This document shows positions 34,670-58,065 of a DNA stretch of 64,000 bases, piece after piece (position 1 is the stretch's first letter; each line of letters begins with the position of its first letter). This stretch comes from a virus, in IMG/VR virus record IMGVR_UViG_3300034073_003245, positions 21,717 through 85,716 of that record; one strand, written 5' to 3'. The position numbers were made by a program, and so were the translations under genes. Below the pieces are notes generated by a model, which was given only the letters and a program-made list of their open reading frames with translations, did no database searches and was not told the DNA's origin.

Positions 34670-37600
34670 ATGTCATATAGCAACATTGAGTTCAAGTCAA
34701 ACCCGGGCCAATTCAACATTGACGAGGCCCAGGGCATCGTTGAGTGTTTCGTGGCGGGCATTGGCAACAAAGACTCGGTAGGCGACGTTCTTGTTCCTGG
34801 AGCATTTTCAGAAAGCCTTAAGAGAAGAAAGCCTCGCGTTGTGTGGGGCCACAACTGGAATGACCCAATTGGAAAAGTCCTAGAGATTTATGAGGTTGGC
34901 CCTGGAGACGCCAGACTCCCACAGAAGATGCGCCAGGCCGGAATCGGCGGTCTTTACGCCAAAGTGCAATTCAACCTGAATTCGGAGAAGGGTCGCGAGG
35001 CTTTTGCCAACGTGGCTTTCTTCGGCCATGAGCAAGAGTGGTCAATTGGATACAAGACCATTGACTCAATCCATGACCCAGGCGTCAAGGCGAACATCCT
35101 CAAGGAAGTTGAACTTTACGAAGTTTCGCCAGTTCTTCACGGCGCCAACCAGTTGACTGGCACAATTTCTGTAAAGTCAGACGATCTGGCCCTGGCCGAT
35201 GCAGAAAAGGGTTGGGGCATGGGGATGCCACACCACATGATGGGCATGAAGCCGCAGCAACCACAGGTCATCGTTATTAGAGAAGACGACGATGATGATG
35301 ACAAGTACGAGTCTGAGAAGCCGATTTTTGCCGAGGGGCTCGCTCAGCCGATTGGCGGACAACAGCGACGTATGCTTGAAAAAGAAATCGCTGAAAGAAC
35401 CGGTTCTCAAATCCGCCTAATTGAGGCGACCGAAAACACGGCAGTTTTTTCAAGAATGATGCCTACTGGCGGAACAATGGTTTTCCGCGTCAGTTATCAC
35501 ACCCCTGACAATTTCAGAACTTTTATGTTTGGCAAGCCGGAACTTGCAGACGGCCAAGTGACAATGCCGGGTGCGACGCAAAAGCCAAGAACGGTTGTTC
35601 CCTCCCAGATGCCATCAATGCCCATGCAGGTTAAGCCCGGCTATTCGCAAGACGAAATGGGGATGTATTCATTCCCTAAGTCTGGTGAGACGGAAAAGTC
35701 TGATCTAGGTTCCCAGATTCAGGCCATTGAGGACATCCTCATGGCTGAAACTGAGGAAAAAGTTGGCAGAACCCTCAATAGAAGAAATCTTTCAAAACTG
35801 AAGTCAGTCATGGAGAGCCTTCAAGAAATAATTGCTTCTGCTGAAAAGGAAATGGACACAAAGGGGTACGTGATCCCGGTTCCATTGGAAGAGGCATTTA
35901 GCACCAAGCAACTTCTAGATCCAATCTTTGACTATCACAGAGTTGAGACTCAAGTTACAGAAGACGGAATTGTCATTACTTCCGGAGTTACACAGGAATT
36001 CATAGAGGCAATTGGCGTTGCCGAAAAAGCGCTCGGGCGCACGCTGAGGGGCGGCCCGGGAAAAGCGCGCCGCGCCGGGCGCGGCCTGGCGGCACGCTTT
36101 GATCCAAACGCCTGGGACGGAGACGGAGACGGCTTAGTTCAGGAAGGTACACCTTTCCAGCGTCCTGCGATTCCAGGAGTTAACGACCGTTCAACTCGCG
36201 GAAGAGTTGACCCAGCAGCAGCAACACAGGCCTGGCAAACAGGTCAGCGCGGAATGGCTTCGCGCGGCGGTCGCCGTATCACCTTGGGCAATGCGAACCC
36301 GAATAGTTTGGGCCCGATGTACGGCTATGACCCAGAAGAGCAGGACTTCAGTTCTGAATCTTATTGGGAAGAAGTTTTTACAGACAGCGACGATATGTTG
36401 CCGTTTTTTCAGGAATGGCTTGAAAAGGAAAAAGGCAAAGAAGCGCTCTGGCATGAACTATCAGATGATGAATTTGAAGAATTGGTTGATAAGTGGAAGT
36501 CAAGCGATGCGTTTGAAAAAGACGTAAAACGCTACGCTGAAATTCAGGCCGATGAAGGAATAGAAGATGGCGAAGCATTTAGGTCCCTATTCAAGCGGTC
36601 AACGCTTGACAAAGTGTGGGTAAGAAACGAACCCAAAGAACGCGGGATGGCATCTCGCGCCGATGTTTTGACAGATCTGGCCATAGATAGCGACGTATCT
36701 GAAGCAATAGATTCTATTGTCAGAGAAGTGCTTGTTTATTCTGGGACAGGGGATAAAGACAAGATTTCTGACTTGGTTTCAGACGCGGCCAGAGAGATTC
36801 TTGACTCCATTAATTTTGACTCCATCAAAGACAGCCCTGGTAAAGCAGTTTCTGATTTCAGAAAAAAACTTGTGGAAACACTGTCAGACGAGGACTTTTT
36901 GCGCGAAGCAATGAGGAAAAAGGACGCAATTAATGAGTTTGTTGATGGTTTATACGACGCCGTAAATTCTGCTTTTGAAAAATATGAAGATCATCTCAAA
37001 AAAACTGGTGGAGACTTTGAAGACTTTGCCGATTTGAAATTTGAACTCCTTGATGACCTTGACGGAAGAGTTTCTAAAATTCTCAATTCATCGCGCAAAT
37101 TATTTGGCGAACTAAAATCAAAGAAAACTGAAGACGAATATAAGTCCAGAGATGAACGTAGAAAGTTAATTGCCTCAATACGGGCAGGGGAACTTCCTAA
37201 AGACTGGAGAGGTAGAGAGACAGAAGACCTAGTGGATGGTCGTGTTGCGTATGAGGAAGCACTTGAAGAAATTGTAAACAACAGCCCAGATGCAGACATT
37301 GACGAGTTGATGTCTGACTATATTGAGGCCGTCAGAGAGGGCGCTAGGAAAAATCCGGACAACAGAGTCCTCGCAGTCCTTGCTGATGTGTACGGAGATG
37401 ATGGGAAAATAACAGACGAAGAACTCAAGAGAAACCTGCAGGACGTAGCAAGACGCTCTCCATTTAACAAAAAGAGGGGCAGAAATGAGAAAGAAGTTCT
37501 TCGCGGCATGGCATCTCGCGGTGGCGGGCGTCCTGGCGACCCGATAACCGACCAAGAGCGCAATAAGGTCAAGAGAGACAGCACTGCCGTATCAATGTTC

Positions 37601-40600
37601 AAAGAGTCAACAGACTACGACAATGCTTTTAATTCTTGGCAAAAAGCCAACCCTGGAAAGTCGGAAAAAGACTTTGAAAAGTCGCCGGAATTTACTGATG
37701 CACTGGTTGAGTTTGACAGATACCTGCTTGACCAAGCATCAAAGGCCACGGGGATTCGCTACAGCAGAACCATGCCATATAGCGGTGGTCCAATTTCTCT
37801 TGAGCAAATGACTGCTAAGCAAATTCTCAGAGACAGAATGTCTGGGATGTCTCTTGATGATGTCGCTGAAAAAATGAATCTGTCTCGCGAGAAAGTCAGA
37901 TCGCTTGAGGCTCAGGAAGTTATGCGCCTGAGAGATGATGCTTCACCTAGAGAAATACTTGCCTACAGAACAATGGGCTTGAGCCTTGAAGACACAGGTC
38001 GTCTCTTTGGCATGCGCCCAGAGGACGTGCGCAAAGCAGAAGCCAAAGAGATGGCCGACATCCGCAAGGATATGGACGACAACAAACTTATTGAACTCCG
38101 GATGATGGGCTTTTCTCTTGATGATCTCGCAGAAATCACCGGAGCCAGTAGGGAAGATCTTCGTAAGCGGGAAATACAAAGACTAAGAAGAGGCCCAGAA
38201 GACGGTGGCGGCGCGCGCGGAATGGCTAGCCGTGGAAGGTCAGAAGACTTTGACGGCGGGTATGACGAGGCGTACGGTCCGACACCCCCCATAACAAGAA
38301 GGCCGCCGGTCGGAGAATGGGATGTCCTCGTGGGTGAAGAAGCCTACGAGAGAGAAGATGCCAGCAGGCAGCAACGCGGCATGGCAAGCCAAAACGTTAG
38401 ACCAAACGCCGGTCTAGTTAAGTACTCAACAGATCTATTGAATGAAAAACTTGAAGACCTGGACTCAGATCCTCAACCAGGAATGGCCGGAGCGACCCTT
38501 GATAAGACATGGGCAGAGGGAGTGCTTGATGGGCTTCGTGACGGCAGACTTTCATCTGATGACGCAATCAACATCATTGGCCTAGCAGGCAACGATGTCT
38601 TTAACGAAGGCAAGAAGCCAGAAGGCGAAAGAAACCAGGCACTCATTGATTCACGTATCAAGTTGAGCAAGAGGCTAAGAAGGTCTGTCGTTGATTCAAT
38701 GTCCGAGGGCGACATGGAGGAATACCAGGCAAATCGCCGCAGAAGAATGGGTGCTGATCGTGGAATGAGAAGCACTCTTTCTGAGGCAAACAGAAGGAGG
38801 GATGCCGGCCTTACTCCAGGCACTGGTGATCCATCCCCGGGAACACGTGGCCAAAGAGTGGCATCAAGTGGCGGCGAGTACAAGCCGAACACAGAAGAAA
38901 GAGATGCTGCGATTATTCAAAGGCTGAGAGACATAGGCCTTAGCGATGATGAAATTTCCGAATTGACTGGAATAGACAATCTTCCAGACGCAGAAAGAGG
39001 AATGGCATCAAGAGAAATAAAACTAAACAATCGGCAGATTGATAACGCCTTATCAGAACTTGACAATTTGACAGATGATCGTGGTTATGAAGATTGGGAA
39101 TCAATCCAAAAACTGCGTCAGCAATTGTCGGACGCCAAAGACAACAACGGAGTTTTTTCTCCTTCTGAGAGGGATATTGAGGACTATCTTGACGAACTAG
39201 AAAAACTTGAAGATGCAGGATTTGACGACTGGGAAGGTCTGTCAATGATCCGTTCTATTATTAGTGATTCTAGGGGCGAACGTGGCATGCGCTCAAGAAA
39301 CTCCGAAATAGATATGACCCTTGAGGAATACGGTCAACTTCTTGACACTCTTGACAAATATGTTGACGGAAGCGCGGGCGAGGGAGTCGGCGCTGATGAC
39401 GACATGCGTGTTCTTCAGCAGGTAATGGACAAACTTGAGGCGAGCCAAAACGCCAATGACGCAGTTGAACTAACGTCTGACGAAATTTCTGACTATCTAG
39501 ACAGTCTTAAGAATATCCGCGACAACGGTCCAATGGAGGACGCGACTTCTGGCGACAAGGCTAATATCAACAAGTTGATCTCAGCCCTTGAGGGGGCTAG
39601 GGATTCACGGGATGGATCCTACGAGACGCCGGCATTAAGGCGTTCCGGCGCAAGAATTAGCGACCAGCAGGGAAGGGCGTTTAGGTCATCAAGCGGAACT
39701 GTTAACCCTCACGAAAAAATTGAGATGACCCTCAACGGCGATGATATCTCAGCAATGGTTGAAGACATTGACGCGCTTCTGAAACAAACCCCAAATTCCG
39801 CAGCACTTAAGGCTGCTAGAGAAAAGTTCTCAAAGGCCAAGACTGGTGAAAAGATCACCATGGATAAAGACGAGTACGAGCAACTCTACAAAGACATTGA
39901 GACAGCAAAAACGCAGGGCAATAGGGTCACTTCTGAACTCGCATCACTTCTTGACCAGGCAGCAGAAAGCAAAGATGGCAAGTACGTTGACCCCAACCTA
40001 AGAGGACGCGGCGGTATGGCGTCTCGTAATAATGGGGCTCCTTCAGACATTACAGAGGCAATGCAGAAGGAATACATCTTCTGGGCCAGAAATAACCCAA
40101 ATCTTTTTGTCGCTCAAAGAATCCTGAAGAAGTACGACGATAACGATGGACAATTGTCCGCTAGGGACTGGAGAGCGCTTGACACTCTCTACACGAACTT
40201 AAGCCCACGTGGAGGCGGTCGTCGCTCTGGAATGAGATCTCGTTCGGGCCGTGATGCGGAAATAGAGAAACAGAAAAAAATAGACGCCGAAAGAATGCGA
40301 TCAGGCTCCACCACGGGATCGGAGAGCGAAAGAATTGGCAGATCTTCAGAGGGAACTGGAGTCTCAGCCAGTGGTCTTGGAGACATTGGCATTCGTGGTG
40401 AAGGCGCAAGCCAGAGGACAGAAACACCTGGCCCTTCAGAGAAGAAATTTACAGGGAAGTCATTCAATGAAGTCCAACCAGATAACTGGGAATCTCTTGA
40501 CATTGAGGAGAAGTACGACTGGCTATTCAGCAATGGCAAGCCGGAGGTTTCAGGAATGTCGCCGGCGGCCTATGAGGGCGCTCTCAAGAAGTTAATTGCG

Positions 40601-41566
40601 GAAGAAGAGGCTCTTGAAAAGGCCAATACCCGCAGAGCCAGAAGAGCAGGGGCGGGCCAAGATCGCGGAATGGCATCACGTGGAAGAACCCCGAGTCAAA
40701 ATGCCACCTATGACTGGGTTAACAATTTAAGCAGCCCTACTGAAAAATGGCTTGAAGAAAAGAATAAAGCAACCCTTGATTCGTATAAGGAATGGAAAAA
40801 AAACCTGGGAACTATAACCCCAGGAGGACAAGCGCCAGAGATGCTCAGGGGCATGTCTTCTCGCTCCGGTGGTTCTGGTCGCCAGGGAAGAACAATGATT
40901 ACCGACGAAGCAACATACTTCGGTGAGATTGAGAAGAACCTCCCAGTTGAGATAAGAAAAGCAACAGAAGCAAAAGAATCAAAAATTTCCCAAGCATTAT
41001 CGCTGCTGCAGGACATTATCAAGAAACAAGAAGCATCAAAGACCGGTTCAAGAAGAACCAATACGGGAAGCATTTTTGTAACAGCCGACGAGGCTGATCG
41101 TATTCTTGATGCGCTTATGTGGGTTATTGATAGACAGGTCCAAAGAAATGGCAACGAAGAAAGAATATCTGCTTTTGCAAAACTGGTTGACAAGATGGCA
41201 CAAGCCGCCATGTCAACTTTTGTAAACAGAGACACATCAGAAATCGGTTCTCGCACTACAAAAAGAACCAACAGCCGAGGAAAAGAAGTTGAGATCCCCG
41301 ATGCCGGTATAGGCCTGCCAAGAGGAATGGCTTCTAGTTCTAATTTAGGCGGTTACAATAGACGCAGAACACAAGCGGCGGACAAAAAATTTGAAGACAT
41401 CCTTCGTGAGGAAGTTGAAACAAAATTGACTCCAGATCAGCAGAAAAGATACAGCAAACTATACGAAGCAGAAATGGCCAAGTACGGCGGCGCTGGGCTG
41501 GCATTAAAGAGACAAGAAAAAAAAGAAATACACCAAAGAATCATGAAAGAAATTCTCGGCCAGTAA
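34670..41566 (+). CDS. Prohead protease fused to a giant RGMASR-repeat polyprotein
   Basis: A 2,298-residue protein; the ATG at 34670 follows GAGGAG, so a longer TTG-led frame is rejected. Residues 1-165 are an HK97-type (S78) prohead protease with H61 (VVWGHNWNDPIGK), S125 (EWSIGYK) and E151 (LYEVSPVLHGAN). About residues 365-475 are helical (KVGRTLNRRNLSKLKSVM). At 478 it has an acidic loop DPNAWDGDGDGLVQEGT. From there on the motif RGMASR or a variant recurs 13 times (residues 527, 658, 945, 1183, 1236, 1364, 1443, 1538, 1781, 1853, 1999, 2060, 2218), separating 50-290-residue, mostly acidic helical segments. Ordinary prohead proteases are about 200-400 residues. This one may mature itself and neighbours; that is inference. 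Confidence 0.9.
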   Translation: MSYSNIEFKSNPGQFNIDEAQGIVECFVAGIGNKDSVGDVLVPGAFSESLKRRKPRVVWGHNWNDPIGKVLEIYEVGPGDARLPQKMRQAGIGGLYAKVQFNLNSEKGREAFANVAFFGHEQEWSIGYKTIDSIHDPGVKANILKEVELYEVSPVLHGANQLTGTISVKSDDLALADAEKGWGMGMPHHMMGMKPQQPQVIVIREDDDDDDKYESEKPIFAEGLAQPIGGQQRRMLEKEIAERTGSQIRLIEATENTAVFSRMMPTGGTMVFRVSYHTPDNFRTFMFGKPELADGQVTMPGATQKPRTVVPSQMPSMPMQVKPGYSQDEMGMYSFPKSGETEKSDLGSQIQAIEDILMAETEEKVGRTLNRRNLSKLKSVMESLQEIIASAEKEMDTKGYVIPVPLEEAFSTKQLLDPIFDYHRVETQVTEDGIVITSGVTQEFIEAIGVAEKALGRTLRGGPGKARRAGRGLAARFDPNAWDGDGDGLVQEGTPFQRPAIPGVNDRSTRGRVDPAAATQAWQTGQRGMASRGGRRITLGNANPNSLGPMYGYDPEEQDFSSESYWEEVFTDSDDMLPFFQEWLEKEKGKEALWHELSDDEFEELVDKWKSSDAFEKDVKRYAEIQADEGIEDGEAFRSLFKRSTLDKVWVRNEPKERGMASRADVLTDLAIDSDVSEAIDSIVREVLVYSGTGDKDKISDLVSDAAREILDSINFDSIKDSPGKAVSDFRKKLVETLSDEDFLREAMRKKDAINEFVDGLYDAVNSAFEKYEDHLKKTGGDFEDFADLKFELLDDLDGRVSKILNSSRKLFGELKSKKTEDEYKSRDERRKLIASIRAGELPKDWRGRETEDLVDGRVAYEEALEEIVNNSPDADIDELMSDYIEAVREGARKNPDNRVLAVLADVYGDDGKITDEELKRNLQDVARRSPFNKKRGRNEKEVLRGMASRGGGRPGDPITDQERNKVKRDSTAVSMFKESTDYDNAFNSWQKANPGKSEKDFEKSPEFTDALVEFDRYLLDQASKATGIRYSRTMPYSGGPISLEQMTAKQILRDRMSGMSLDDVAEKMNLSREKVRSLEAQEVMRLRDDASPREILAYRTMGLSLEDTGRLFGMRPEDVRKAEAKEMADIRKDMDDNKLIELRMMGFSLDDLAEITGASREDLRKREIQRLRRGPEDGGGARGMASRGRSEDFDGGYDEAYGPTPPITRRPPVGEWDVLVGEEAYEREDASRQQRGMASQNVRPNAGLVKYSTDLLNEKLEDLDSDPQPGMAGATLDKTWAEGVLDGLRDGRLSSDDAINIIGLAGNDVFNEGKKPEGERNQALIDSRIKLSKRLRRSVVDSMSEGDMEEYQANRRRRMGADRGMRSTLSEANRRRDAGLTPGTGDPSPGTRGQRVASSGGEYKPNTEERDAAIIQRLRDIGLSDDEISELTGIDNLPDAERGMASREIKLNNRQIDNALSELDNLTDDRGYEDWESIQKLRQQLSDAKDNNGVFSPSERDIEDYLDELEKLEDAGFDDWEGLSMIRSIISDSRGERGMRSRNSEIDMTLEEYGQLLDTLDKYVDGSAGEGVGADDDMRVLQQVMDKLEASQNANDAVELTSDEISDYLDSLKNIRDNGPMEDATSGDKANINKLISALEGARDSRDGSYETPALRRSGARISDQQGRAFRSSSGTVNPHEKIEMTLNGDDISAMVEDIDALLKQTPNSAALKAAREKFSKAKTGEKITMDKDEYEQLYKDIETAKTQGNRVTSELASLLDQAAESKDGKYVDPNLRGRGGMASRNNGAPSDITEAMQKEYIFWARNNPNLFVAQRILKKYDDNDGQLSARDWRALDTLYTNLSPRGGGRRSGMRSRSGRDAEIEKQKKIDAERMRSGSTTGSESERIGRSSEGTGVSASGLGDIGIRGEGASQRTETPGPSEKKFTGKSFNEVQPDNWESLDIEEKYDWLFSNGKPEVSGMSPAAYEGALKKLIAEEEALEKANTRRARRAGAGQDRGMASRGRTPSQNATYDWVNNLSSPTEKWLEEKNKATLDSYKEWKKNLGTITPGGQAPEMLRGMSSRSGGSGRQGRTMITDEATYFGEIEKNLPVEIRKATEAKESKISQALSLLQDIIKKQEASKTGSRRTNTGSIFVTADEADRILDALMWVIDRQVQRNGNEERISAFAKLVDKMAQAAMSTFVNRDTSEIGSRTTKRTNSRGKEVEIPDAGIGLPRGMASSSNLGGYNRRRTQAADKKFEDILREEVETKLTPDQQKRYSKLYEAEMAKYGGAGLALKRQEKKEIHQRIMKEILGQ
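36101..36265 (+). repeat. Acidic-loop plus RGMASR module, copy 1
   Basis: This part of the giant protease protein encodes DPNAWDGDGDGLVQEGTP, then FQRPAIPGVNDRSTRG, an Ala-rich spacer and RGMASR. Copies are at 52600-52842 and 56437-56679 in two other proteins. Copies 1 and 2 keep the amino acids but differ at many third bases, so selection acts on the protein. The D-x-D-x-D-G spacing looks like a calcium-binding loop. Copy 3 is more diverged and its cleavage-like motif reads RGMASF. Confidence 0.8.
37808..38192 (+). repeat. Three tandem helix-turn-helix-like repeats in the polyprotein
   Basis: Residues about 1047-1174 contain three aligned units of about 37 residues: MSGMSLDDVAEKMNLSREKV, MGLSLEDTGRLFGMRPEDV and MMGFSLDDLAEITGASREDL, each followed by a charged helix. 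Each unit has the helix-turn-helix look of sigma-factor region 4 or small regulators. The segment lies between the RGMASR sites at residues 945 and 1183, so cleavage would release it as one piece. A DNA-binding role is inferred only. Confidence 0.6.
39014..40010 (+). repeat. Tandem helical repeats in the polyprotein
   Basis: Between RGMASR sites at residues 1443 and 1781 the protein holds repeated helical units with matched phrases: NRQIDNALSELDNLTDDRG, then DIEDYLDELEKLEDAGFDD; TLEEYGQLLDTLDKYVDG, then DEISDYLDSLKNIRDNGPM; and DISAMVEDIDALLKQTPNS, then DEYEQLYKDIETAKTQGN. The pattern is a pair of helices with a Ser/Thr-x-x-E/D-x-I/Y cap. They look like copies of one small helical domain. Function unknown. 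Confidence 0.55.
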
Positions 41567-41690
41567 AAATTCCAAAATCTTGTCAAAGATTAAAAGAAAG
41601 ATAGACTAATACAAATAATCGCATTTACTCTCTGCGCACAGCGGAGTTAGTGCTAAGTTATACTTTTACCAAGAAGTTCATATTTGTGTA

Positions 41691-41720
41691 TTGACAGTTT
41701 TTCCTGTCTTGTCGCATAAA
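41691..41720 (+). promoter_or_regulatory. Sigma70-like promoter before the acidic protein gene
   Basis: A perfect -35 box TTGACA at 41691-41696 is followed after 18 bases by CATAAA at 41715-41720. The gene's AGGAG (41724-41728) and ATG (41738) lie directly after, so any transcript would have a very short leader. The whole gap 41567-41737 contains no gene. A weak AT hairpin at 41576-41591 follows the giant gene. Confidence 0.45.
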
Positions 41721-41737
41721 ACCAGGAGTAAGAAAAA

Positions 41738-43123: not shown

Positions 43124-43141
43124 AAGAAAGCGTGCCCGCCT

Positions 43142-46100
43142 ATGACGGGTTTCAACCAAAGAAAAATCAGGCATTACGCTAATAGTCTTTTAGAACCGAA
43201 TCACGCCAAGAATGTTGATTTTCGCGCCATTCTTTTTCGCGAAAGCCTGAAGGCGTCTTCTTCTAAAGATGTCCTTGATGCGACGTACTCCATAAAGGCG
43301 GCGTCCCCATTCCAGGGTGATTCAGACAACAAAAAACGTTCACCAGCGCAAAAGGCAAAATCTCCCTACAACATTGAGTACGGTCTCGTATACGACCCTA
43401 ATGCCAAGTGGGCGCCAGGCAAATACTTCAAGCACTATGTAACTGAAGAAGAGCGCAAACAAGCGATGCAGTTGGATAACCCGAATCCAAACTGGGGCTG
43501 GCTTGACGGCACTGAGGGCTCAAACACCATGCCGGTGTCAAACAGCAAAGGCGACCTGAAGGTTGTCTACGAAAAAATCACACAAAAGCCAAGAGGCGAT
43601 GATTTTGAAGAAAAAGGCCTTCTTGGAAGATCAATAGGGGAAAGAAACCCAGCGGGGAAACTTGGAACCAGGGCGGCTAGGGCGTTTGGAGTAGTTGTTG
43701 ATGCGCTGGGTAAGTTCAGATGCCCCCCTGGTACTCCGGCGGCCAACCAGTTCACAAACGAGCGTGGCGAAAACTGTTTTTCCATATCTGGGGTGGCCCA
43801 GGATCTTATAGCAAACAGGTTGATCGGATTCTTGGAAGGAAAGCCGAAGTCTGATTCCAAACTTGTTTCATCCCTGCTTTCCGCTGGTGTTAGTTATTCA
43901 AGAATTAGAGATGCGTACAGAAGTGATGGGTGGAGAGGTCTAGCCAGCCTTGCTTCAGCAGCACTTGAGGGCGGCGGTCTTGTTGGAGACGAATACGATG
44001 ACGGTTCATATAGAACGTCCGTAATCCAAAAAGTTTTAGAAAGAGCAAAGGAAACACAGAACACTGTTTCCAGGACGAGAGCCAAGAGTGATGAGCGGAG
44101 AAAAATGGTCTCCGATTTGTTGGCAAAATACGGAATACCCGAAACTGGCGACAATTCAGATATGGTCCAACTTGTTGACGCAATGACAAGAGATGGAGTA
44201 CTACACCCGCTCACTAAGGGATCAGATCTTTTTATGGGTGGAACTCTTGCTTCCCATCAAGATGAACTCTTAGAAAAAATAATGGGTGACGCCGATTTCG
44301 CGGAATACAAGCGGATGAAAACAGCGGGGGAAACTGGCCCATTAACAGATATCGCTGACATGATACTTGAGAGGGACCGTCAATACATGCGCGGCACTAT
44401 TTCTGGAATTCTGCAAATGGCGCTCAGAAATCCTGACTCATACGGAAAAGTAAAATTTTCTTTAAAGCCGGAAAGAGATAAATCAGGCACTCATGCAGTA
44501 TCTTTCTGGTGGGGTACTAAAAGTTTTGAAGGACATCAGATTGTTATAAACCCATACGCAGTTGCAAAAGACATCATGCCGAACCTAAAAAAAGGTGAGT
44601 CAATTCTCGTAACCGCTACTGGAGGTGATTCTCAAGAGGACCACTGGAAAGCAATCGCGGCGAAACTTGGCGATGCAGAAAGAATGAGCATTTGGGCCAG
44701 GACGCACATGACCGACCTCGCTGCAACCGTTGGCAACGGTTGGGAGGATTTTGGCGCAGAAGTAGGAATACACGAGATGGTCCATGTCCAACAGTTTGAA
44801 GCGATGATTCCAATGGTGCTTCAAATGAATGGCCACCCGGATGCAAGGTCTTATACACCAGATCAAATTAACGACGCGCTGCGCACGCTTAGCAACTGGC
44901 AAATTGGCATTTCTATGGGTGAAATCGCAAATGATCCAGACTTGACAAAAGAAGTTTTTGGTCTTGACATCTACGATCTTGTTGAAAAACGTCTTGACGC
45001 TCTTGCTGGTTCATACAGCGCAATAACACAGCAGGAAGCACTTGAGGCACTGCAGGCGGCAAACGAACTTTCTGATGAATCAGAAAAAGAAGACGCTATG
45101 TTTCTATTCGCACAAAGTGTAGCCACGGCCACATACGAAACACTTGCAGAACTTGGTACAGCGCGAGAAATGGGATTGATTGAGGGGGAGGATGTGGACG
45201 AGGCGCTTTCGTTTATGAGCCCACCTAAATATGCCCCAATATCTGTTCCGTCTTCCCCCTCGGGTCCGCTATCTCCGGACCCAACTGCACCACGACCAAG
45301 CACGCCGTCCGGCGCTCCAACTCCGATCCGCCCTGGGTCACCAGGACCCGCTGTTCCTGACCTAGTTGACTCCACGGTTAGCACAGAAGAAGTTGAAATG
45401 ATGTGGGGTCTCAGACCAAGGCCTGGAAGAAAAGAAAAGACATACGACATCGTCAGAAACCGAAGAGGGAAGGTGCCTACTTTGATTCTTGACGGACGCA
45501 TGACAAGAGAAGATGTTGAGGATCACATATTTGGAGAGGTGGGGGTTAACGGGAAGCGAACTGGTGGTGTTCTTGGACAGATTCGTTCAATCAGAAACAT
45601 GTCCAAAAACGATACTCCTGACAAACCAACCGCCAGAGAAAGAAGAAGAATACTTAATGCCCTTCTTGACAGTTTGCCATTAGATGAAAAGGAAATAGAA
45701 AGAATTGGCCTTGATACTGGACCACTGACTGGTGAAGACAGAGAGAAACTTGAACAGACAATTGCAATACTTAGAAATGCTGTTTATGAATACAGGGAAA
45801 AAGCAGAAAAAGCAAGAGAGGCATACAGAAACTACCAAGGCGTAAGTACAGAATACGACTACGACGACTATGACGCCAACTACAGAGCCCTCCAGCGTCT
45901 TGATAATGAAGCAAGGATGTGGGACGCGCTCGCTAATAGAATAGGCAGAGGACTAGCCGCGTCTCTTGACGACATTATTGACATTAGGGACAATGGGCCA
46001 TATCCTCCGTCAACTGATCGCGGTAGAAGGAGAGCCGCAGTTCCCGGCAGGACTTTTGATGTTGACGGAATGGAAATAGACAGGGACACTGGGGAAATTG

Positions 46101-49257: not shown

Positions 49258-49853
49258 GCGAGTACGAATACAAGGCACCGCAAGACGTTTTGCTTGATCT
49301 ACCCCAGGAAAGAATTACTGGAGACATACTCAAAGGACGTGGACCAAGACGCGGAAACCTTGAAAGACTTTTGCGCTACTGGAGACCAATTATGCGCAAG
49401 CCTGGCGGTTTTCGCAGATGCAAAGTAATTCTTGCAGACCACCCGGAATTGTACCCCCTGAACAACATCTGCGCCTGGCTACACCATGAGACAACTGGCT
49501 TGTGGCCAAACGAGGGGTGCCATCACCCCGGGATGAAAAACTGTAGAAAAAAACTAAAGGGCGTTGTTCGCGGATCAATATGGTCAGACGCTGAGTTTAA
49601 TAAAAGAGTTACAAGAAAAGTTCGGGGACAAAACAAGAAAACAGCCCTTGTTGAAGAGCAAGATTATGATGATGTAGTCACAAATGACGACATTAAATAC
49701 GCCCTTATAGTGATGAGGGACTTCCAGGAAATGGAAGGACCATTCTGCAAAATGATCGCAGACGACAACAACTGGGAAATAGAAGCAGAAGATGAGCAAA
49801 CTGGCGAAACAAAGTCGCTTCCTTTTATAAGAACCAGCGAGGATTGTTGCTGA
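49254..49853 (+). CDS. Conserved-looking phage protein with Cys/His motif
   Basis: A 199-residue protein whose ATG overlaps the stop of the previous gene by four bases. It contains GPRRGNLERLLRYWRPIMRK, then DHPELYPLNNICAWLHHETT and a Cys/His stretch WPNEGCHHPGMKNCRKK, which could bind zinc. The C-terminal half is acidic (EQDYDDVVTNDDIKYALIVM, and EIEAEDEQTGE) and it ends DCC. It is a head-neighbourhood protein of unknown role. The Cys-x-His-His-x(4)-Cys arrangement is the best functional hint. Confidence 0.65.
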   Translation: MSEYEYKAPQDVLLDLPQERITGDILKGRGPRRGNLERLLRYWRPIMRKPGGFRRCKVILADHPELYPLNNICAWLHHETTGLWPNEGCHHPGMKNCRKKLKGVVRGSIWSDAEFNKRVTRKVRGQNKKTALVEEQDYDDVVTNDDIKYALIVMRDFQEMEGPFCKMIADDNNWEIEAEDEQTGETKSLPFIRTSEDCC

Positions 49854-51862
49854 TGTCCGGATGCTGTGGCGAATCAATATCTTTCGTAAAGCAGAGAACT
49901 GTACTTATTCAGTCAACCAAAAGTTTCTCTACTTCAACAAGGGCATACAAAAAGCCAATCGCCAGAAATCAAAATCTCATTGAATACAAGGCACTTGCAA
50001 AAAGAGCCGGAATAAACAAAAACTATGACGTAAAGGTTGGCTTAATCGGAACCCATTCTCCGATAGGCCAGGCTATTCAGTCAATAGGTTCTGCGGCTAT
50101 TCCTGGCAATCTCAGCCCTGTAAGAAGCCCTATTAGGTCGGGCATTTTTGGGGCATTGACACCAGGAAAGCCAAGAATTCCCGGAGGCACTGGTGGGTCT
50201 AACAGGGCATATAGATGCCCAGAGGGTTACCAGTACGGAGGTCGTTTTACAGACTCCCGTCTTTCAACCTGTGGGGCAAAACTATTTGATATACCTGGTC
50301 CACTTGGAGCAGCGATAGGTGCTATCAGAAGAATCGCTCGTGGAGCGAGGGCGATAGCAGCAGCATCTACTCCGATTACAGGAGAGCCAGTGGGAGATTC
50401 CCTGGTCCAATCAAGAAAACCTCAAATCCCTAGGGTTTCAAATGCAAACCCCAAAGCAGCGAGTGTCAATGCGAGAGACATTGTTCGGCAGATGGGACAA
50501 CTCAGCACTCCTGTTACAAGAATGGTCAGAAGAGACGGCTTTATTCTTGAGCCAGTCGTTCCGGCACAGGTGTTAAGAGCGATCCCGGATAACAGGGACA
50601 TGGAGGGGGCCAACTACATAATGCTGGCAACCAGACTTCCTGATCTCGGTGGACAGGAACTTGGTCTTCTATCAAATACTGGCGTCACAAAATTGACATA
50701 CGTTCTTCCCGGCGGGTCTTCAATCACCCTTGAAAAGAGAAGGCCGCTAACAGTTGGTGAAAGAAGAAAACTCGGCAGAACTGTGAACTCCGCCGCAAAA
50801 ATCAGTATTGAAAACGACCCTACTGCACGTCTTCGGGAAGTCGTCAATCAGACAGGAGATGGCATTGGATACACGGAATCTTTTGTAAACATCAAAAACC
50901 CAAACGAAACCGTTGTCAAAAATGGCAAGTCAATACCCAAGTGGGCTGATGAAATTTACGGCAAGGGAAGAAAGGCAAGGCCTGTAGCGGAATCCGCCAG
51001 AGAAACAGATTCTGACGCAGAAATTGGGAAACTCATTACTTCAATAGACGAAGCGATTGACCACATCGCAAAAGGTGGATCCCTTTCAAAAGTTGACCCA
51101 TCAATTCTTCAGCAAGCAATTACGAGAGCAAATGTTTTCAAAAGGCAAAAACTTGACTCTTCAAGGGAGATTATTACGGCCCCAGATGGAAGAAAGTACG
51201 TTCAGTACCGTTCTTCATCCAACTTTGAGCATATTGCCCAGAAGTTCTCTGCCGACATTCAGCAACATCTAGGCCTTGAAAGCCCTGACGTTTTCTTTGT
51301 CGGCACAGGAGACAGGCGTCAATACCTAACAGAAGAGGCCGGCTCAATTTTGCGCGGCTTCAATGTTGATAGAAGAAAAACGATGAAAGACTACAGTCCG
51401 GAAGATGTGGCAAAGATGCTTATATCCGACTGGCTTACAGATAGCCGTGGCAGACCTCCTGGGTCAGTAATTTCTGTTTCAAACGGAGAAGAAACAAGGC
51501 CCGTTATTTCTGACAATAGAAAATCAGGGCTTGTTGACCTTGATAAAATTTCTATAGTTGAGAGACAAAAGGCAACATTCGCTGATTTCCTTAATGCTGA
51601 TGAAAATTTGGACTACAGAAGATATTTCCAGGAACTCAAGGAACAGCAAAGATTTGCCTTCAGAAAGGAAATTGAGGCTCTACTATTGAGGGCTAGAAGA
51701 TTCAACTTTACTAAATTCAAGGATCGTCTTTACAGTGACGGGAAGTTGAGTTCTGCGGAAAAAGCCCACTTGAACATCATCGGCAAAATCCTTGAAACAC
51801 GAATCAAGATTTACAGCAACAGCAAAGACACGCTTATGGATATTCTTGGAGCCAAAAAATGA
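49853..51862 (+). CDS. Large head-island protein with kinase-like C-terminus and C-x17-C motif
   Basis: A 669-residue protein. The start is the ATG on a TGATG junction with the previous gene. It begins MSGCCGES; C122 and C140 in YRCPEGYQYGGRFTDSRLST mirror the motif in the metallopeptidase protein with the same 17-residue spacing. A Pro/Arg-rich middle follows. The C-terminal 200 residues (QYLTEEAGSILRGFNVD, DVAKMLISDWLTDSRGRPPG, then GLVDLDKISIVERQ) fit the layout of the HipA/PI3-kinase-like domains seen in phage head proteins, but the catalytic residues are less clear than in the next gene. Confidence 0.6.
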   Translation: MSGCCGESISFVKQRTVLIQSTKSFSTSTRAYKKPIARNQNLIEYKALAKRAGINKNYDVKVGLIGTHSPIGQAIQSIGSAAIPGNLSPVRSPIRSGIFGALTPGKPRIPGGTGGSNRAYRCPEGYQYGGRFTDSRLSTCGAKLFDIPGPLGAAIGAIRRIARGARAIAAASTPITGEPVGDSLVQSRKPQIPRVSNANPKAASVNARDIVRQMGQLSTPVTRMVRRDGFILEPVVPAQVLRAIPDNRDMEGANYIMLATRLPDLGGQELGLLSNTGVTKLTYVLPGGSSITLEKRRPLTVGERRKLGRTVNSAAKISIENDPTARLREVVNQTGDGIGYTESFVNIKNPNETVVKNGKSIPKWADEIYGKGRKARPVAESARETDSDAEIGKLITSIDEAIDHIAKGGSLSKVDPSILQQAITRANVFKRQKLDSSREIITAPDGRKYVQYRSSSNFEHIAQKFSADIQQHLGLESPDVFFVGTGDRRQYLTEEAGSILRGFNVDRRKTMKDYSPEDVAKMLISDWLTDSRGRPPGSVISVSNGEETRPVISDNRKSGLVDLDKISIVERQKATFADFLNADENLDYRRYFQELKEQQRFAFRKEIEALLLRARRFNFTKFKDRLYSDGKLSSAEKAHLNIIGKILETRIKIYSNSKDTLMDILGAKK

Positions 51863-54800
51863 AACAAATGGCAGTTCTTTTTGACGCAATCCGCAACGAG
51901 CGTTTTGCCATCGCTGTAAAGTCAAATGGATCCATTGAATATTTTGGCGCTGAAGGTCAGGCAAGGGAGTGGACTAACTGGGCCAACTCCGATGTAAGAA
52001 ATAAGTCTGCAGAATTGCCAATGGGGATTGTTATAGGCCCATATAAGAATGTTTCTGAATTTGAAATTAATCAGGCTATTAGCAATCTTGGCTACTCTGA
52101 AATCACTAATGTCAAAGAAGTTTTTTCCTCAAAGTCGTACAGAAACGCTGGATCAGTCAAGGTTTCAAATACATCGCGTGTTCCCTCAGTTTACGACACG
52201 CCCGTCTACCACTTTCCAGACTCAAAGTACGCAAATGCTGTTAATTACAAAGCACTCGCTTTTAGAGCAAACATTAAGCAGGCAAGCGCCCTGTATGAAG
52301 CAAGGGTAAATAACTATGTGTTTAATGCAGATAAAAACCACTTCATTGCAAAGCCTGGAAGCCTAGAAGAAAAGACGCTGCGCCCAAGATTTGAATCCTC
52401 AATGACAAGAGGAATTGAGAGAAGACTTGGCAGGAAAATTCTTAGAAGCATGGAAGAAATTCCAGTTAGAACCAAGACTGGAATTATCCACGAACTTGAA
52501 ACAAAGTCTCTTGACTTTGAGTTCAAATCAATCGGCCAAAGAATAGGCGGCGGAACTAGAGGCGCTAGAAGGGCGGCAAGATTTGCTTCAGCAACTTTTG
52601 ACCCCAATGCATGGGACGGTGATGGCGACGGGATAGTGCAAGAGGGAACGCCATTCCAAAGACCAGCAATTCCTGGTGTTAATGATCGCTCAACCCGTGG
52701 CAATGTTGACGTTTCTGCGGCAACTAGGGCATGGGAAAACTCGGGTAGTTCGGCAGAAAGAGGCTCAATCGCCAGAACTCCATCAAGAGCAAGAACGGAG
52801 TCTGCTCAAGTCCAACAGGTTGAGCGCGGCATGGCATCTCGCGCCGAAAGGGCCAAAAAGAAATCTAAGCGCAGAGCAGTACCAGGAAAAGACAAGGTTT
52901 CGGAAACAGACGGTCAATGGTGGGCTCAACTCGGTGACGAGCAGAGAAAAACCGTTGTTGAAAACTTGAGAAATAGGCTCACTGACCTTGAGGCCCTAGC
53001 CAAGGGGTCAAAGAAGGGGGCATACGGTCTCCTGACAAGCGATGGTGGCTGGTGGCAGGGATGGCTTGATGCAAACAGGGGCGTAAAAGACGGAGACGGT
53101 AAGCCATTTGAATTCGGGAGCAAGATCAGAGGTGCCGCACTTGCCGACCTCGGAACCGAAATCATGGACATCATTGATGACATTGACGCAAATAAAAATC
53201 TTGATGACAACAAGAAGGCGCAAGAGAAGCAAAAATATCAAAGGCTTCTTGACGATATAAAAACATTGGCTCAGATGGATGAGTCTGATGACTTTTCACT
53301 TCTTGAACATCTGCACCCAGCATCAAGAAGGGCAGGGCTTGGAGATGCGGGTAAAAGCGCAACAGGTTACAAAAAAGTTGACGGCAAAGTTCCTGCTGGC
53401 CTTGGAGACCCCAAAACTGTTTCTAGTATTCATGGAAGAACTGGCGGCGCTGTTGTTGACGAAACAAAAGCAAAAGTCAAGAAGCGCGATCCAAAACTTA
53501 AGAACTTGGTGAGACGCCTAAGCGAAGAAAATCCAGAAAGAGCGCGCAGAAGAGCGCAGAGAAGAGCGAGAAGGGCTGGCGCTAACGTCGGCGGATTCAC
53601 TGTAGATAGAGAAAATACAAAAGAGAAGACAAAGAGAAGAATAAGAAAAGCAAAAAGACAACTTGCTAGAAGAAAAACAAGATCAAATATTGAAGCAATT
53701 GCGCGTGATGCTGCAAAAAACAAACTCAAAGCGGTTGGTATTAGAAAAGGTCCAGATGGAAATCAGATTGAAACAAGCGGCTACGTTTCAAGGGATGCTG
53801 ATGGAAAAATAATTTTCACCAAAGAAGGCGTGAGTGCAGTTTTTGAAGCACTTTCTATCTATAGAAGAGAAAAGAAACCAAAGTCTTCAAAAGAAAATAG
53901 AGAAGCAACATTTATTGCCTCTTTGTGGGACGCTATTGGTTTTAATGGAACACCACATCTAGTAAAAGATGAAGAAATTCCTTTGCTTGTTAATGCCGGA
54001 TGGAAGCCGATCAGGAGAGGTCACGGGGAAGAAAGATGGGCTGACGAATGGCTTTACGACCCAGAAAGGTTTGTTACTGGCCAGAAAGGCGAGGCTGCTG
54101 GCCCTGGCGAATACTGGGCGACACAAGATGGCGGCTGGAGGGAAAGTTCATATTGGGGTGGCCCTAGTGAAAAGGGCGGAACATTCGCATGGCTGTCGCC
54201 TTCTGCAAAAACCATCAAACAGGATAAATTGAGACAAGAAAGGCAGAACGCCAACAAACTTGACACTTTTTCTGATGGATTAATAAAGATACTGGGCGGC
54301 AAAGGCGATCAGATTGACAAAGATTCCCTATTGATGGAATATGACCGCGCGCGCTCGGGAGATGGCGAGTTTGCATCGGGATCGCAAATCTGGGATACCG
54401 AAATGGGTCAAGTTTATTCGCAGTTGTTTGAACTTCTGCGCAATGGCGACCTGACAACATCGCAACTTCAAAATGCGCTAGACGGATTGAGTCAGGCCGC
54501 CAAGCATGAAAACTATCTAGCACCTATCCTTGGATATGACGCTATTGAGGTTGATGACAGAGTTTTGGTTATGAACAGGGCTGCTCTTGTTGCTCTTGAC
54601 AGACCAGTTTCAATCAATGAAGCGCTTGAAATCGGCAAAAACATTGAACCGCCGCAAGTTCCAAGCCCCCCCGCGCAAAGCAGGGCGCCGAGAGTTAATG
54701 GACGCCTACAGGTTGACAGCCTGAAATTCGTTGGCGGGCCACTTGGTTCACAGGCGGCCGGGCAGTATGAAGATCCGGCAACAGGTGAGCGCTTCTACGT

Positions 54801-55392
54801 AAAGTCGCCACGCACAAAACTGCATGGCGAAGTAGAAGTTCTAGGATCAAAACTTGTTGAAATGTTAGGTCTCAATGGGGTCAGAATGGGCTTCGCAGAT
54901 CTCAAGGGTCAAGAAGCAATAGCAAGCACTATGCTTCCAGTACGAAGCGGAAAGCCCGACGACCCTGCTTTTAAAAAGAAAGTCCGCGAAATGTTTGTCG
55001 GCCTAGCATGGCTGGGGAATAGGGACACAACCGGAAATCTTTCAAACCTGAAAATGGATAGCAAGGGAAACCCGATCATCATAGATCATGGGGATTCAAC
55101 GATCTTCCGTGCGAGAGGGGACAGAAAGACTGACTGGGGAACAGAAGTGGGTGAAATGTTTTCACTCAGAGACCCCAGCATAAACCGGGGCGGCGCTACT
55201 TATTTCGGTGATATTTCTGAAAAAGAAATAGCAGATCAAGTTAAGGCCATAGGGAAAATCAGTGATAAACAAATCATGGACCTAGTCAACTCAACCATTT
55301 CAGATCCCGCCGAAGCGAAGCAAATCGCGGATACGCTAATCGCCAGAAGGGACTGGTTGACCACCAACTGGTCCAAGGGGAGAAAGGCCTGA
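51859..55392 (+). CDS. Polyprotein with C-terminal kinase-like domain
   Basis: A 1,177-residue protein; its ATG overlaps the stop of the previous gene by four bases. At residue 248 it has the acidic-loop module DPNAWDGDGDGIVQEGT, and at 323 the motif RGMASR. A very basic stretch lies near 555-620 (ERARRRAQRRARRAG). Residues 950-1177 form a kinase-fold candidate. K982 is in ERFYVKSP. LGSKLVEMLGL follows. D1056 and N1060 lie in GNRDTTGN, the catalytic-loop position. D1076/D1079 lie in IIIDHGDST, the metal-binding position. Similar domains occur at the C-termini of other phage head proteins. Substrate unknown. Confidence 0.7.
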   Translation: MKQMAVLFDAIRNERFAIAVKSNGSIEYFGAEGQAREWTNWANSDVRNKSAELPMGIVIGPYKNVSEFEINQAISNLGYSEITNVKEVFSSKSYRNAGSVKVSNTSRVPSVYDTPVYHFPDSKYANAVNYKALAFRANIKQASALYEARVNNYVFNADKNHFIAKPGSLEEKTLRPRFESSMTRGIERRLGRKILRSMEEIPVRTKTGIIHELETKSLDFEFKSIGQRIGGGTRGARRAARFASATFDPNAWDGDGDGIVQEGTPFQRPAIPGVNDRSTRGNVDVSAATRAWENSGSSAERGSIARTPSRARTESAQVQQVERGMASRAERAKKKSKRRAVPGKDKVSETDGQWWAQLGDEQRKTVVENLRNRLTDLEALAKGSKKGAYGLLTSDGGWWQGWLDANRGVKDGDGKPFEFGSKIRGAALADLGTEIMDIIDDIDANKNLDDNKKAQEKQKYQRLLDDIKTLAQMDESDDFSLLEHLHPASRRAGLGDAGKSATGYKKVDGKVPAGLGDPKTVSSIHGRTGGAVVDETKAKVKKRDPKLKNLVRRLSEENPERARRRAQRRARRAGANVGGFTVDRENTKEKTKRRIRKAKRQLARRKTRSNIEAIARDAAKNKLKAVGIRKGPDGNQIETSGYVSRDADGKIIFTKEGVSAVFEALSIYRREKKPKSSKENREATFIASLWDAIGFNGTPHLVKDEEIPLLVNAGWKPIRRGHGEERWADEWLYDPERFVTGQKGEAAGPGEYWATQDGGWRESSYWGGPSEKGGTFAWLSPSAKTIKQDKLRQERQNANKLDTFSDGLIKILGGKGDQIDKDSLLMEYDRARSGDGEFASGSQIWDTEMGQVYSQLFELLRNGDLTTSQLQNALDGLSQAAKHENYLAPILGYDAIEVDDRVLVMNRAALVALDRPVSINEALEIGKNIEPPQVPSPPAQSRAPRVNGRLQVDSLKFVGGPLGSQAAGQYEDPATGERFYVKSPRTKLHGEVEVLGSKLVEMLGLNGVRMGFADLKGQEAIASTMLPVRSGKPDDPAFKKKVREMFVGLAWLGNRDTTGNLSNLKMDSKGNPIIIDHGDSTIFRARGDRKTDWGTEVGEMFSLRDPSINRGGATYFGDISEKEIADQVKAIGKISDKQIMDLVNSTISDPAEAKQIADTLIARRDWLTTNWSKGRKA
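52600..52842 (+). repeat. Acidic-loop plus RGMASR module, copy 2
   Basis: The second copy of the module lies in the kinase-like polyprotein, with DPNAWDGDGDGIVQEGTP, FQRPAIPGVNDRSTRG, a longer Ser/Arg-rich spacer and RGMASR at 52825-52842. It is almost identical in amino acids to copy 1 over the first 35 residues, with frequent codon differences. Confidence 0.8.
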
Positions 55393-55393
55393 C

Positions 55394-55726
55394 ATGGACG
55401 GCAACAGAATCGGAGACATGGAGAAAGCACATATTGAGTTTTCTGTTATCGCTCAATACCCACCATTTTCAATATCGCTCAAAAAACAGCGCCCATACCT
55501 TGAGGACCTCAATAAGGAAGAAGCCCGAATTGTTTCGGAGTGGAAAGAGGGGAATCCTGACGCATTCAGGAGGATGTTCTCCACTCTTGAGGCTAAGTGG
55601 CAAGACGACATAGATGAAGCGCGCCTGTACCAGAAGCGTTTTAATTCACCAACAGAGGCCTGGGAATATTACGTCAAAGAAAACAGTCTTGACGAAATGG
55701 ACAGGGACGTTCCACTCCGTCCATAG
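55394..55726 (+). CDS. Small unknown protein of the head island
   Basis: A 110-residue protein starting one base after the previous stop. It is helical and rich in aromatic residues (KKQRPYLEDLNKEEARIVSE, then WKEGNPDAFRRMFSTLEAKW, and FNSPTEAWEYYVKENSLDEM). It lies between the kinase-like and Zeta-like polyproteins. No motif known. Its place suggests an accessory or partner protein. Confidence 0.6.
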   Translation: MDGNRIGDMEKAHIEFSVIAQYPPFSISLKKQRPYLEDLNKEEARIVSEWKEGNPDAFRRMFSTLEAKWQDDIDEARLYQKRFNSPTEAWEYYVKENSLDEMDRDVPLRP

Positions 55727-55728
55727 TT

Positions 55729-58065
55729 ATGCATACAGAACTCCAGAAAAAAGTAGCAGCCCTGCGAGGAGCCATTTCACTTGGCTGCACGGGGGCACAT
55801 AAGTCGGCTTCTGGAGACTGGTTACCGTGTTCAACGCCGGGAGAATTGCTGCAAGCGGCTTTCGGTGACGAGATAAAGTCACGCATCACCCCAGGCGATA
55901 TTGAGTCATGGCGTTCAAGGAGAAAAAAGCGCGGCAAGAGAAGAAAAAGACGCGATAACTGGGAGAAACTGGGCGAACGCGGCGTGGCAGGCATTGACCG
56001 CATATCAACTGGCCTAGTATCTGCTGTCACCGGTGGTTCAAGGCCCCCAATTACCAATGGTTATGTTGCTCCGGCAGGAATGTCTACAAAATCTGCTCAA
56101 CAGGCGTTCAATCCCCGAGACGACGACGACGATGTTTACTTTGACATTGAGTCTGCGAGAAAAAGATCAAGGCAACTCGGGTGTATAGGCGTCAGTAGGC
56201 GCGTGTCTAAGTCTGGCAAAACCGTGTGGATGCCGTGTACAAATATGTCCGACTACGCAAGACTAACTGGTTCAACTGCGCTAGGCAGAAGACATATCCA
56301 AAATGCAGCGCGCGGAGTAGTTAGAACCGTAGTGAGGGAAGAACTCAAAAGACGCAAAAAAAGCATTTATGAAGAACTTTCTAACAAGTCAATAGGAAGA
56401 AGGATCGGCAGAGCAGCCGGCAGAGTTGAGCCATTTGACCCAAATGCGATTGATGGGGATGAGGACGGCGTAGTTCAAGATGGAACGCCATTTGAGCGTC
56501 CAGCAACACCATCCGCGCCAAAGATTGAAAATCCGGTTGAAAGAGATGCAACAGAGAATGATATTGATTCAGTGAGGAACTGGATTGAAAAATCGTCCAC
56601 AGATGACCGCGAAGCACTTCGTGGTGACCCAATTGAAATGTTTGACGCCATCCCAGGGCAGAGAGGCATGGCCTCTTTTTCGGTTGGCGACAGAGGGTCA
56701 AGACGTTCAACAAAAAGACCAAGACCACAGCAAAAACCGCAAAAAATCAGCGGAATGGAGAACCGGGAAGCCAGCCAAACTAACCCGTTTAGGAATATGG
56801 GTGGAAGGGCTATGGGTCAGATCATACGTGGTCTTGTAAAGCCTGAAAACAAGGGCAAAAAAGATAGGACTGCATACATTATCGGAGGAAACATCGGCTC
56901 CGGAAAAACTACAGTCCTTGAGGGGCACCTAGTACCGCAGGGTCTTGTGCCGGGAGTTGAGGAAGCAGCAACCATAGACCCCGACTTCATTAAACTTGGG
57001 CTGCGTGGATATGACGACGGCGCAGGCGCAAGAATGGTGCATCGCGACTCACAAAAGGCGACAGACAAGACAATCGTTGACGCGGCCGCTGAAGGTGCTG
57101 ATCTGGTCATAACCGGGAGTGGTGCGAGTCGCCAAAGACAGCACATAAGAGAAGCAAAGGCGCGCGGCGAAAGGGTTGTTGGGCACTATGTCCACGTTCC
57201 CAAAGAAGAAGCGGCAAAAAGAATTAGATCAAGAGCACAGAGGGACGGACGCCAGATAGACGACAACACTGGGCATATGGCTAGAAGTATTCCGCAAATG
57301 GTTTCTTCCGCAGTTAATGCTGGCGATATGGACGAATTTTATCTCTGGGACAACGATGTGCCTGAAGGTGGAACACCAAGACTTATAGCATCAAGCGTTG
57401 ACGGAGAACTATCAATCATTGACCAAGACAAATTTGACGAATTCATGATGGGCAATGAAATAATAAGTGCAAAGCGGACAAGGGGAATGGCGTCTAGGGC
57501 TACTTCGCTCAACGGGGAAGAGACAGCAAAGGCGCTTAAGGACATGGGTCTTGAGGTATCAATGGTCGGGGATATAATAGTAGAACTTCCCAAAGGTACG
57601 GCTATTAGGAAATACTACGAAGAATACGTTTTGCCACGCTTAGTAGTGCAGTTCGGAAGAACTCATACGCATGCTTCACGTAAAGATAAACCAGGTGTCC
57701 CAATCGTTGAGGACGTAAATAAACTTCTTGGATTGGGGATTGACAAAAGGGAAATCTCGGATAAAAGATATCGTAAAAGAATGAAGGAAATTATTCTTTC
57801 TGATGATCGCCAGGTTTTTATTCCCCTGTTCTCTAACGCTCCGATCAATGGCCCAAGGGGCGAACAAAGATTTGGGGACCTGGACATCGCGGATCAAGGA
57901 ATTTCTATTGACATAGACAGCGATTCCATAGTCTTAGATAGCATTGCCAAAAAAGTTGGTGTGTCAAGAGAAGATATAGACTCATTAATTGCCGGGGGGA
58001 TTTCTGTTGGGCAACTGCAAGAAATGTCAATAGACGAAATAAAAGATTATCTAAAATTAATCTAA
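55729..58065 (+). CDS. Polyprotein with Zeta-toxin-like kinase domain
   Basis: A 778-residue protein, starting two bases after the previous stop. Two cysteine pairs occur: C20-x13-C34 (LGCTGAHKSASGDWLPC) and C152-x17-C170 (LGCIGVSRRVSKSGK to WMPC). The acidic loop DPNAIDGDEDGVVQDGT is at 237, with RGMASF at 312 and RGMASR at 585. Between them a P-loop domain has GGNIGSGKTT at 386-395, then ATIDPDFIK, ARMVHRDSQKATDKTIVDAA and VGHYVHVPKEEAAKRIRSRA. This is the order of the Zeta/PezT kinase family, which phosphorylates UDP-sugars in toxins. No partner antitoxin is seen beside it. A role as a cargo enzyme is inferred. Confidence 0.8.
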   Translation: MHTELQKKVAALRGAISLGCTGAHKSASGDWLPCSTPGELLQAAFGDEIKSRITPGDIESWRSRRKKRGKRRKRRDNWEKLGERGVAGIDRISTGLVSAVTGGSRPPITNGYVAPAGMSTKSAQQAFNPRDDDDDVYFDIESARKRSRQLGCIGVSRRVSKSGKTVWMPCTNMSDYARLTGSTALGRRHIQNAARGVVRTVVREELKRRKKSIYEELSNKSIGRRIGRAAGRVEPFDPNAIDGDEDGVVQDGTPFERPATPSAPKIENPVERDATENDIDSVRNWIEKSSTDDREALRGDPIEMFDAIPGQRGMASFSVGDRGSRRSTKRPRPQQKPQKISGMENREASQTNPFRNMGGRAMGQIIRGLVKPENKGKKDRTAYIIGGNIGSGKTTVLEGHLVPQGLVPGVEEAATIDPDFIKLGLRGYDDGAGARMVHRDSQKATDKTIVDAAAEGADLVITGSGASRQRQHIREAKARGERVVGHYVHVPKEEAAKRIRSRAQRDGRQIDDNTGHMARSIPQMVSSAVNAGDMDEFYLWDNDVPEGGTPRLIASSVDGELSIIDQDKFDEFMMGNEIISAKRTRGMASRATSLNGEETAKALKDMGLEVSMVGDIIVELPKGTAIRKYYEEYVLPRLVVQFGRTHTHASRKDKPGVPIVEDVNKLLGLGIDKREISDKRYRKRMKEIILSDDRQVFIPLFSNAPINGPRGEQRFGDLDIADQGISIDIDSDSIVLDSIAKKVGVSREDIDSLIAGGISVGQLQEMSIDEIKDYLKLI
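56437..56679 (+). repeat. Acidic-loop plus RGMAS module, copy 3
   Basis: The third, more diverged module lies in the Zeta-like polyprotein: DPNAIDGDEDGVVQDGTP, FERPATPSAPK and, after an acidic helical spacer, QRGMASF. A full RGMASR at 57481-57498 comes after the kinase domain, so the two sites bracket it. Confidence 0.7.

Follow-up and report, generated by a model that had tools for sequence, protein, structure and literature searches.

The 64,000-nucleotide stretch analysed here (the window), which is part of the 85,716-base IMG/VR record IMGVR_UViG_3300034073_003245, contains very large genes in a row between the portal gene (32491-34560) and the capsid gene (58192-59526), and four of the proteins that they encode carry a short repeated motif of the RGMASR type. 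Judging from sequence comparisons, this motif probably marks processing sites in packaged cargo polyproteins and in the tape measure protein, all of which would be cut by one trans-acting protease, most likely the S78 prohead protease found at the start of the first polyprotein. Profile searches identified a contractile-tailed phage, with genes for tail sheath, tape measure, baseplate J, portal, terminase and an HK97-type capsid. The features on which the argument relies are the following:

34649-41566, plus strand: polyprotein 1, with the S78 protease, linker regions, an EF-hand-like module and then 13 motif sites
34673-35218, plus strand: S78 prohead protease domain (PF04586, phrog_80), with the WGHNW and EWSIGY signatures
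36098-36178, plus strand: EF-hand-like module of polyprotein 1 (FDPNAWDGDGDGLVQEGTPFQRPAIPG), just upstream of motif site 1
36248-41338, plus strand: thirteen G-M-[ARS]-S sites in polyprotein 1
43142-48850, plus strand: metallopeptidase-type polyprotein, with one motif site
about 43721-43777, plus strand: CP-G-FT-C module of the metallopeptidase-type polyprotein
about 44771-44785, plus strand: HEMVH zincin-like signature of the metallopeptidase-type polyprotein
46532-46549, plus strand: RGMASR site of the metallopeptidase-type polyprotein
51859-55392, plus strand: kinase-like cargo protein, with an EF-hand-like module at about 52597-52677 and one motif site
52825-52842, plus strand: RGMASR site of the kinase-like cargo protein
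55729-58065, plus strand: Zeta-kinase cargo protein (PF06414, E=1.7e-10), with an EF-hand-like module at about 56434-56514 and sites at 56662 and 57481
15211-19410, minus strand: tape measure protein (phrog_167, E=1.1e-7), with a Gly/Pro linker containing GGMSSRGMMST at about 17611-17643
58192-59526, plus strand: major capsid protein (PF05065, E=1e-43), without the motif

The first-pass annotation had reported 17 RGMASR-type sites in the four proteins (13, 1, 1 and 2), and every coordinate that it gave for them was correct when checked. In the protease fusion they are located at 36248, 36641, 37502, 38216, 38375, 38759 (RGMRST), 38996, 39281 (RGMRSR), 40010 (GGMASR), 40226 (SGMRSR), 40664, 40847 (RGMSSR) and 41321 (RGMASS), and in the other three proteins at 46532, 52825, 56662 (RGMASF) and 57481. 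The description of the repeat as RGMASR stands except for the leading Arg, which is absent at two of the sites (40010 and 40226), and the length of 2,298 residues given for the fusion has to be amended, as its largest open reading frame starts at TTG 34649 or at ATG 34673 and encodes 2305 or 2297 residues, about 2100 of which lie beyond the S78 domain. When the residues of the large proteins were shuffled, GMAS had a mean expectation of 0.17 copies compared to the 13 observed, and no single 4-mer of the G..S kind exceeded 7 copies in any of the 200 shuffles.

Relatives were obtained using as query the EF-hand-like module common to three of the proteins (FDPNAWDGDGDGLVQEGTPFQRPA), which by eye resembles an EF-hand or dockerin loop. 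This query retrieved 276 IMG/VR loci; 24 related records were rebuilt from stretches of at most 20 kb, with 8 more added later in part or whole, and 20 related records were examined closely. An exact DNA pattern for RGMASR searched in IMG/VR gave chance matches only, and a whole-polyprotein query retrieved no relatives. The giant proteins recur in these relatives and the repeated motif varies, with GMRS, GFAS/GFSS, GLAS, GLRS, GLSS, GSKS and GSRS as further forms. In each genome one form predominates, often accompanied by similar ones (GFAS, GFSS and GLAS co-occur in G003), and the highest count corresponds to G016, with 38 copies of GMRS and 57 sites by a wider core pattern. The common core is G-x-x-S, in which position 2 is M, F, L or S and position 3 is A, R, S or K; G029, G040 and G043 are among the few records without a clear repeat of this kind. 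A tree built from 36 protease domains shows several switches of the motif form, and on it GS[KR]S arises at two separate positions, one in G019 (whose sister has GMRS) and the other in L381/G030 (whose sister has GFAS). The cultured phage DSL-LC01, which has a related kinase-like domain, shows no such repeat, and a screen of the cultured relatives for any repeated motif found none clearly above shuffles.

The repeat is best understood as a protein-level feature, because synonymous codons vary at the sites. Four kinds of Gly codon are present at the window sites, the third motif position is encoded by GCN, CGC, AGA and TCN, and the Ser codons show a TCN:AGY ratio of 14:3 compared to 77:23 in the genome. 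The codon variation that had previously been taken as a sign of selection on the protein is therefore real, with differing codons for Gly, Ala/Arg and Ser at the sites, and in every genome tested both TCN and AGY are used for the site Ser, at a ratio that in several of them is near the genome's own. We also considered that the repeat could be a by-product of duplication or gene conversion at the DNA level, or of a DNA element, and in G016 neighbouring sites do look tandemly duplicated (SGMRSRSGGMRSR). However, such an origin was rejected by codon use (TCN and AGY for Ser, CGN and AGR for Arg, within one genome) and the same motif form is found in unrelated genes and in the tape measure; we give it next to no weight.

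The tape measure protein of the window carries GGMSSRGMMST (minus strand, 17643/17628), which confirms a match already pointed out in the first-pass annotation. Of the first 25 records, 17 (the window counted) have a homologue of this protein, as do 8 later records, and the Gly/Pro-rich linker of these homologues, at about residues 570-770, tends to follow the version of the motif used by its genome. It often bears exactly that form: GMSS in G000, GFAS twice in G003, GLAS twice in G006, GLRS in G007, GMRS in G018, GSKS twice in G019, GFAS in G008 and G028, and GLASST in G033 and G041; the linkers of G002, G014, G013 and G022 match their own motif poorly. In a swap test, each linker was scored by the cargo-derived matrix of every genome and the labels were permuted 100,000 times. 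In the first version of the test (n=14) the own matrix came first in 9 cases and the own-genome total was above all permutations (p<1e-5), and when the linkers were defined by homology and the matrices were wider (n=18) the p value was ~1e-5. Control regions (the tape measure outside the linker, and other proteins of 200-450 residues) gave p values of 0.46, 0.34 and 0.18. Some tape measures also have motif matches close to their N terminus, and these may be due to chance.

A binding peptide that is not cut, functioning in cargo loading or as a chaperone or assembly tag and repeated for avidity, would also fit a motif that is short, has an unvarying Gly and Ser and is placed in disordered linkers in many copies per chain, and its recogniser could be any fast-evolving phage protein. 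However, the same lineage-specific form appears in the tape measure, which is not a head protein, and the single-copy N-terminal module described below is a better candidate for a tag. A capsid-loading tag in particular is disfavoured because the tape measure covaries with the cargo motif. Taking both sides together, we consider a binding peptide distinctly unlikely.

As read from their sequences, the syntax of these proteins is a single N-terminal unit followed by alternating domains and sites. In a sample of 379 sites from 87 proteins of 21 genomes, order-promoting residues are sparse around the sites (0.18 vs 0.27), and the fraction of sites inside blocks conserved across genomes is 0.66, compared to 0.76 for rotated positions, none of 2000 rotations being as low. 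The Zeta protein was modelled with AlphaFold2, and its two sites are in segments (299-334 and 581-592) with a predicted local distance difference test score (pLDDT) below 50. These segments flank a kinase domain for which Foldseek gave epsilon/zeta and PezT toxins as matches, and in the model of the protease protein site 1 is within a low-confidence stretch (524-542). Exactly one copy of the EF-hand-like module is present in each of 68 proteins. In 61 of 63 proteins it comes before the first site, and just 2 of 301 sites are upstream of it, compared to 49.6 expected from uniform placement. Metallopeptidase-type proteins lack this module and have a CP-G-FT-C module in the equivalent place, and this was ahead of the first site in all 17 proteins that contain it together with at least two sites. 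The CP-G-FT-C module is also present in a 672-residue protein of the window (49844-51862) and in its counterparts in relatives, and the motif is absent from the former and was never found in the latter. The N-terminal unit of the Zeta protein (window 55729-56300) contains two DUF3721-like Cys modules (GC-GAH...W-PC).

It could also be that the invariant Ser is modified, for example by phosphorylation or glycosylation, by a phage or host enzyme. The invariant residues are Ser and Gly, basic residues are common nearby, and the same island encodes kinase-like proteins. However, a simple kinase rule does not predict that position 2 shifts in concert between lineages, and sites that separate domains and spare the N-terminal unit argue against a modification, which we regard as highly improbable.

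A protease fits best because the sites lie between domains and leave the N-terminal unit intact, and because the invariant Ser follows a small or basic residue as in HK97. The S78 domain is the obvious suspect, as in most cases it is fused to the principal substrate and as the WGH[NS]W and EWSIGY signatures were found in 112 of the 112 relatives checked; from family knowledge, we take the His and Ser of these signatures to be the catalytic residues. The domain was recognised by PF04586 (E=2e-11, 44.8 bits vs a cut-off of 21) and phrog_80 (E=6e-29), and the gene order is portal (32491-34560), protease (34649) and capsid (58192), with the large cargo island before the capsid gene. In a fold search, a model of the protease (mean pLDDT 62) gave no PDB match at E<=0.001. 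Near the presumed catalytic Ser, Asp replaces Glu five residues before EWS (FFGxDQEWS) in both independent GS[KR]S lineages and also in a GFSS lineage, and this position is a weak, post-hoc lead to a specificity determinant. The first-pass annotation had attributed the sites to the protease that begins the first polyprotein. According to our data, the motif forms, the way in which the linker follows them and the placement of the sites fit one trans-acting reader, and the S78 domain is the most likely cutter. Some relatives of the protease (L442, L443 and L444) are on contigs binned in marine metagenome-assembled genomes (Gammaproteobacteria, Phycisphaerae), and we have not assigned a host because these contigs may be misbinned phage. 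In G018, G020, G032, G040 and G043 a stretch resembling the DUF6321 protein (DPKGGLTAAGRRHF...LKPGVKGPADTP) is fused behind the protease, while in the window the DUF6321 protein is encoded downstream of the capsid gene (60124-60816).

Several observations weigh against this proposal. In the wider swap test the own matrix was top in just 6 of 18 cases, and the permutation ignores the relatedness of the genomes. In G030, which served as an out-of-sample check, the tape measure gave no match with the 4-mer GSRS, and the likeness of its linker (EALGSGS) to the fuller motif [LM]GSRS is a post-hoc fit of low weight. The cultured phages Gordonia GMA6 and DalanDe have homologous proteases and no such repeat. 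Moreover, the protease domain is strongly conserved, at 75-86% identity to that of the window, across lineages with different motifs, and none of its residues can be clearly linked to the motif type, the top-scoring columns perhaps just following phylogeny. The capsid protein is the usual substrate of S78 proteases, and assembly of the tape measure normally takes place outside the prohead. As previously noted for the window, the capsid protein is devoid of the motif, and this holds in 14 aligned relatives, in which the N terminus of the protein shows neither the motif nor a covarying one. The capsid without motif, the conserved protease and the site of tape-measure assembly leave room for a binding peptide, for modification of the Ser, and for a zincin.

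With a zincin, the sites would be cut after ejection, inside the cell, by the co-ejected zincin-like metallopeptidase, or else by a host protease. Cargo and tape measure are both expected to exit the particle at infection, which would account for their common motif, and 25 of 26 records encode an HExxH protein of this type. Furthermore, the available text on polyvalent proteins proposes that embedded metallopeptidases release domains (PMC5512222). On the other hand, the counterpart in G014 has no HExxH and yet the GLRS motif is retained, and the lineage-specific changes of the motif are not obviously explained by a host protease. Cutting after ejection is thus, in our opinion, unlikely.

If the S78 protease is the one that cuts, the N-terminal unit would bring the giant protein into the procapsid, this unit being either the protease or a unit with the single EF-hand-like or CP-G-FT-C module at its end. 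The protease would cut G-(M/F/L/S)-(A/R/S/K)-S in disordered linkers, plausibly directly before the invariant Ser as at K103/S104 of HK97, and the effector domains (Zeta-type kinase, kinase-like, zincin and others) would be released for ejection with the DNA. A shift in the preference of the recogniser in a lineage could then be followed by sites genome-wide, including the tape measure, which would explain the covariation that we observe. Packaging and DNA-linked delivery of the cargo are predicted solely from the position in the head gene cluster. That this is a widespread uncultured phage group in which a prohead protease is fused to, and cuts, effector chains of kilo-residue size as well as the tape measure, its specificity drifting alongside the sites, is a proposition that we find evenly balanced.

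The prohead protease of T4 acts on several head and ejection proteins. Likewise, a single prohead protease cuts several head and ejection proteins at A-x-E in SPN3US (PMC10052503). In the available text on SPN3US these cuts mostly remove N-terminal propeptides, at a Glu motif and with the capsid protein as a substrate (PMC10052503), whereas the phages studied here have G-x-x-S sites between domains, up to tens of them in a genome, and a capsid protein without the motif. The maturation protease of HK97/D3 belongs by profile to the same S78 family and its gene is also between portal and capsid (PMC10275583, PMC12749128), and the HK97 cut at K103/S104 is in an unstructured segment, with the Ser preceded by a basic residue (PMC10275583). 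However, the HK97 substrate is the capsid scaffold domain, and the accessible parts of these papers describe no fusion to a cargo polyprotein (PMC10275583, PMC12749128). Processing is common among tape measures (lambda gpH, TM4) and is in some cases internal, although the portion of the source available to us mentions no cut motif common with head cargo (PMC1796659).

The proteins described in this work are also like the polyvalent proteins, giant multidomain chains with effector and peptidase domains that are predicted to travel with the DNA (PMC5512222, from its accessible text, as for what follows on these proteins). Several domain kinds are present here as well, namely the S78 protease together with a hint of a Sigma70-r4-like helix-turn-helix in polyprotein 1, the Zeta kinase, and the HExxH proteins. 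For polyvalent proteins, domain release by embedded peptidases has been proposed and likened to RNA-virus polyproteins, and DarA and DdrB of phage P1 are processed and packaged (PMC5512222). Their assemblin-like peptidase is always C-terminal, whereas the S78 domain is N-terminal here, and that text describes neither a repeated lineage-specific site motif nor a link to the tape measure (PMC5512222). A term search of the openly licensed literature, within the text that it offers, found neither a mention of RGMASR nor biochemical or mass-spectrometry data on cutting at the motif.

If the sites are cut, simply reading them would show where domains begin and end in many phage effectors that lack annotation, and the maturation of head cargo and tail ruler would be tied to one recogniser. 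Many naturally diverged pairs of HK97-type protease and site would also be available as a natural series. The protease family is common (at least 587 confirmed loci in one scan), and a large group of uncultured tailed phages seems to have giant chains with such a tag.

Finally, the window also contains a gene for a B12-dependent ribonucleotide reductase (61086-63131) and a tRNA-Ile with anticodon tat (63527-63599). To the left of the window in this record (L010), inspection by eye revealed open reading frames resembling a cytochrome P450 (11718-12929), a flavin-dependent halogenase of the tryptophan type (14653-16161) and a 2-oxoglutarate oxygenase (16149-16730), a set that is unusual for a phage.
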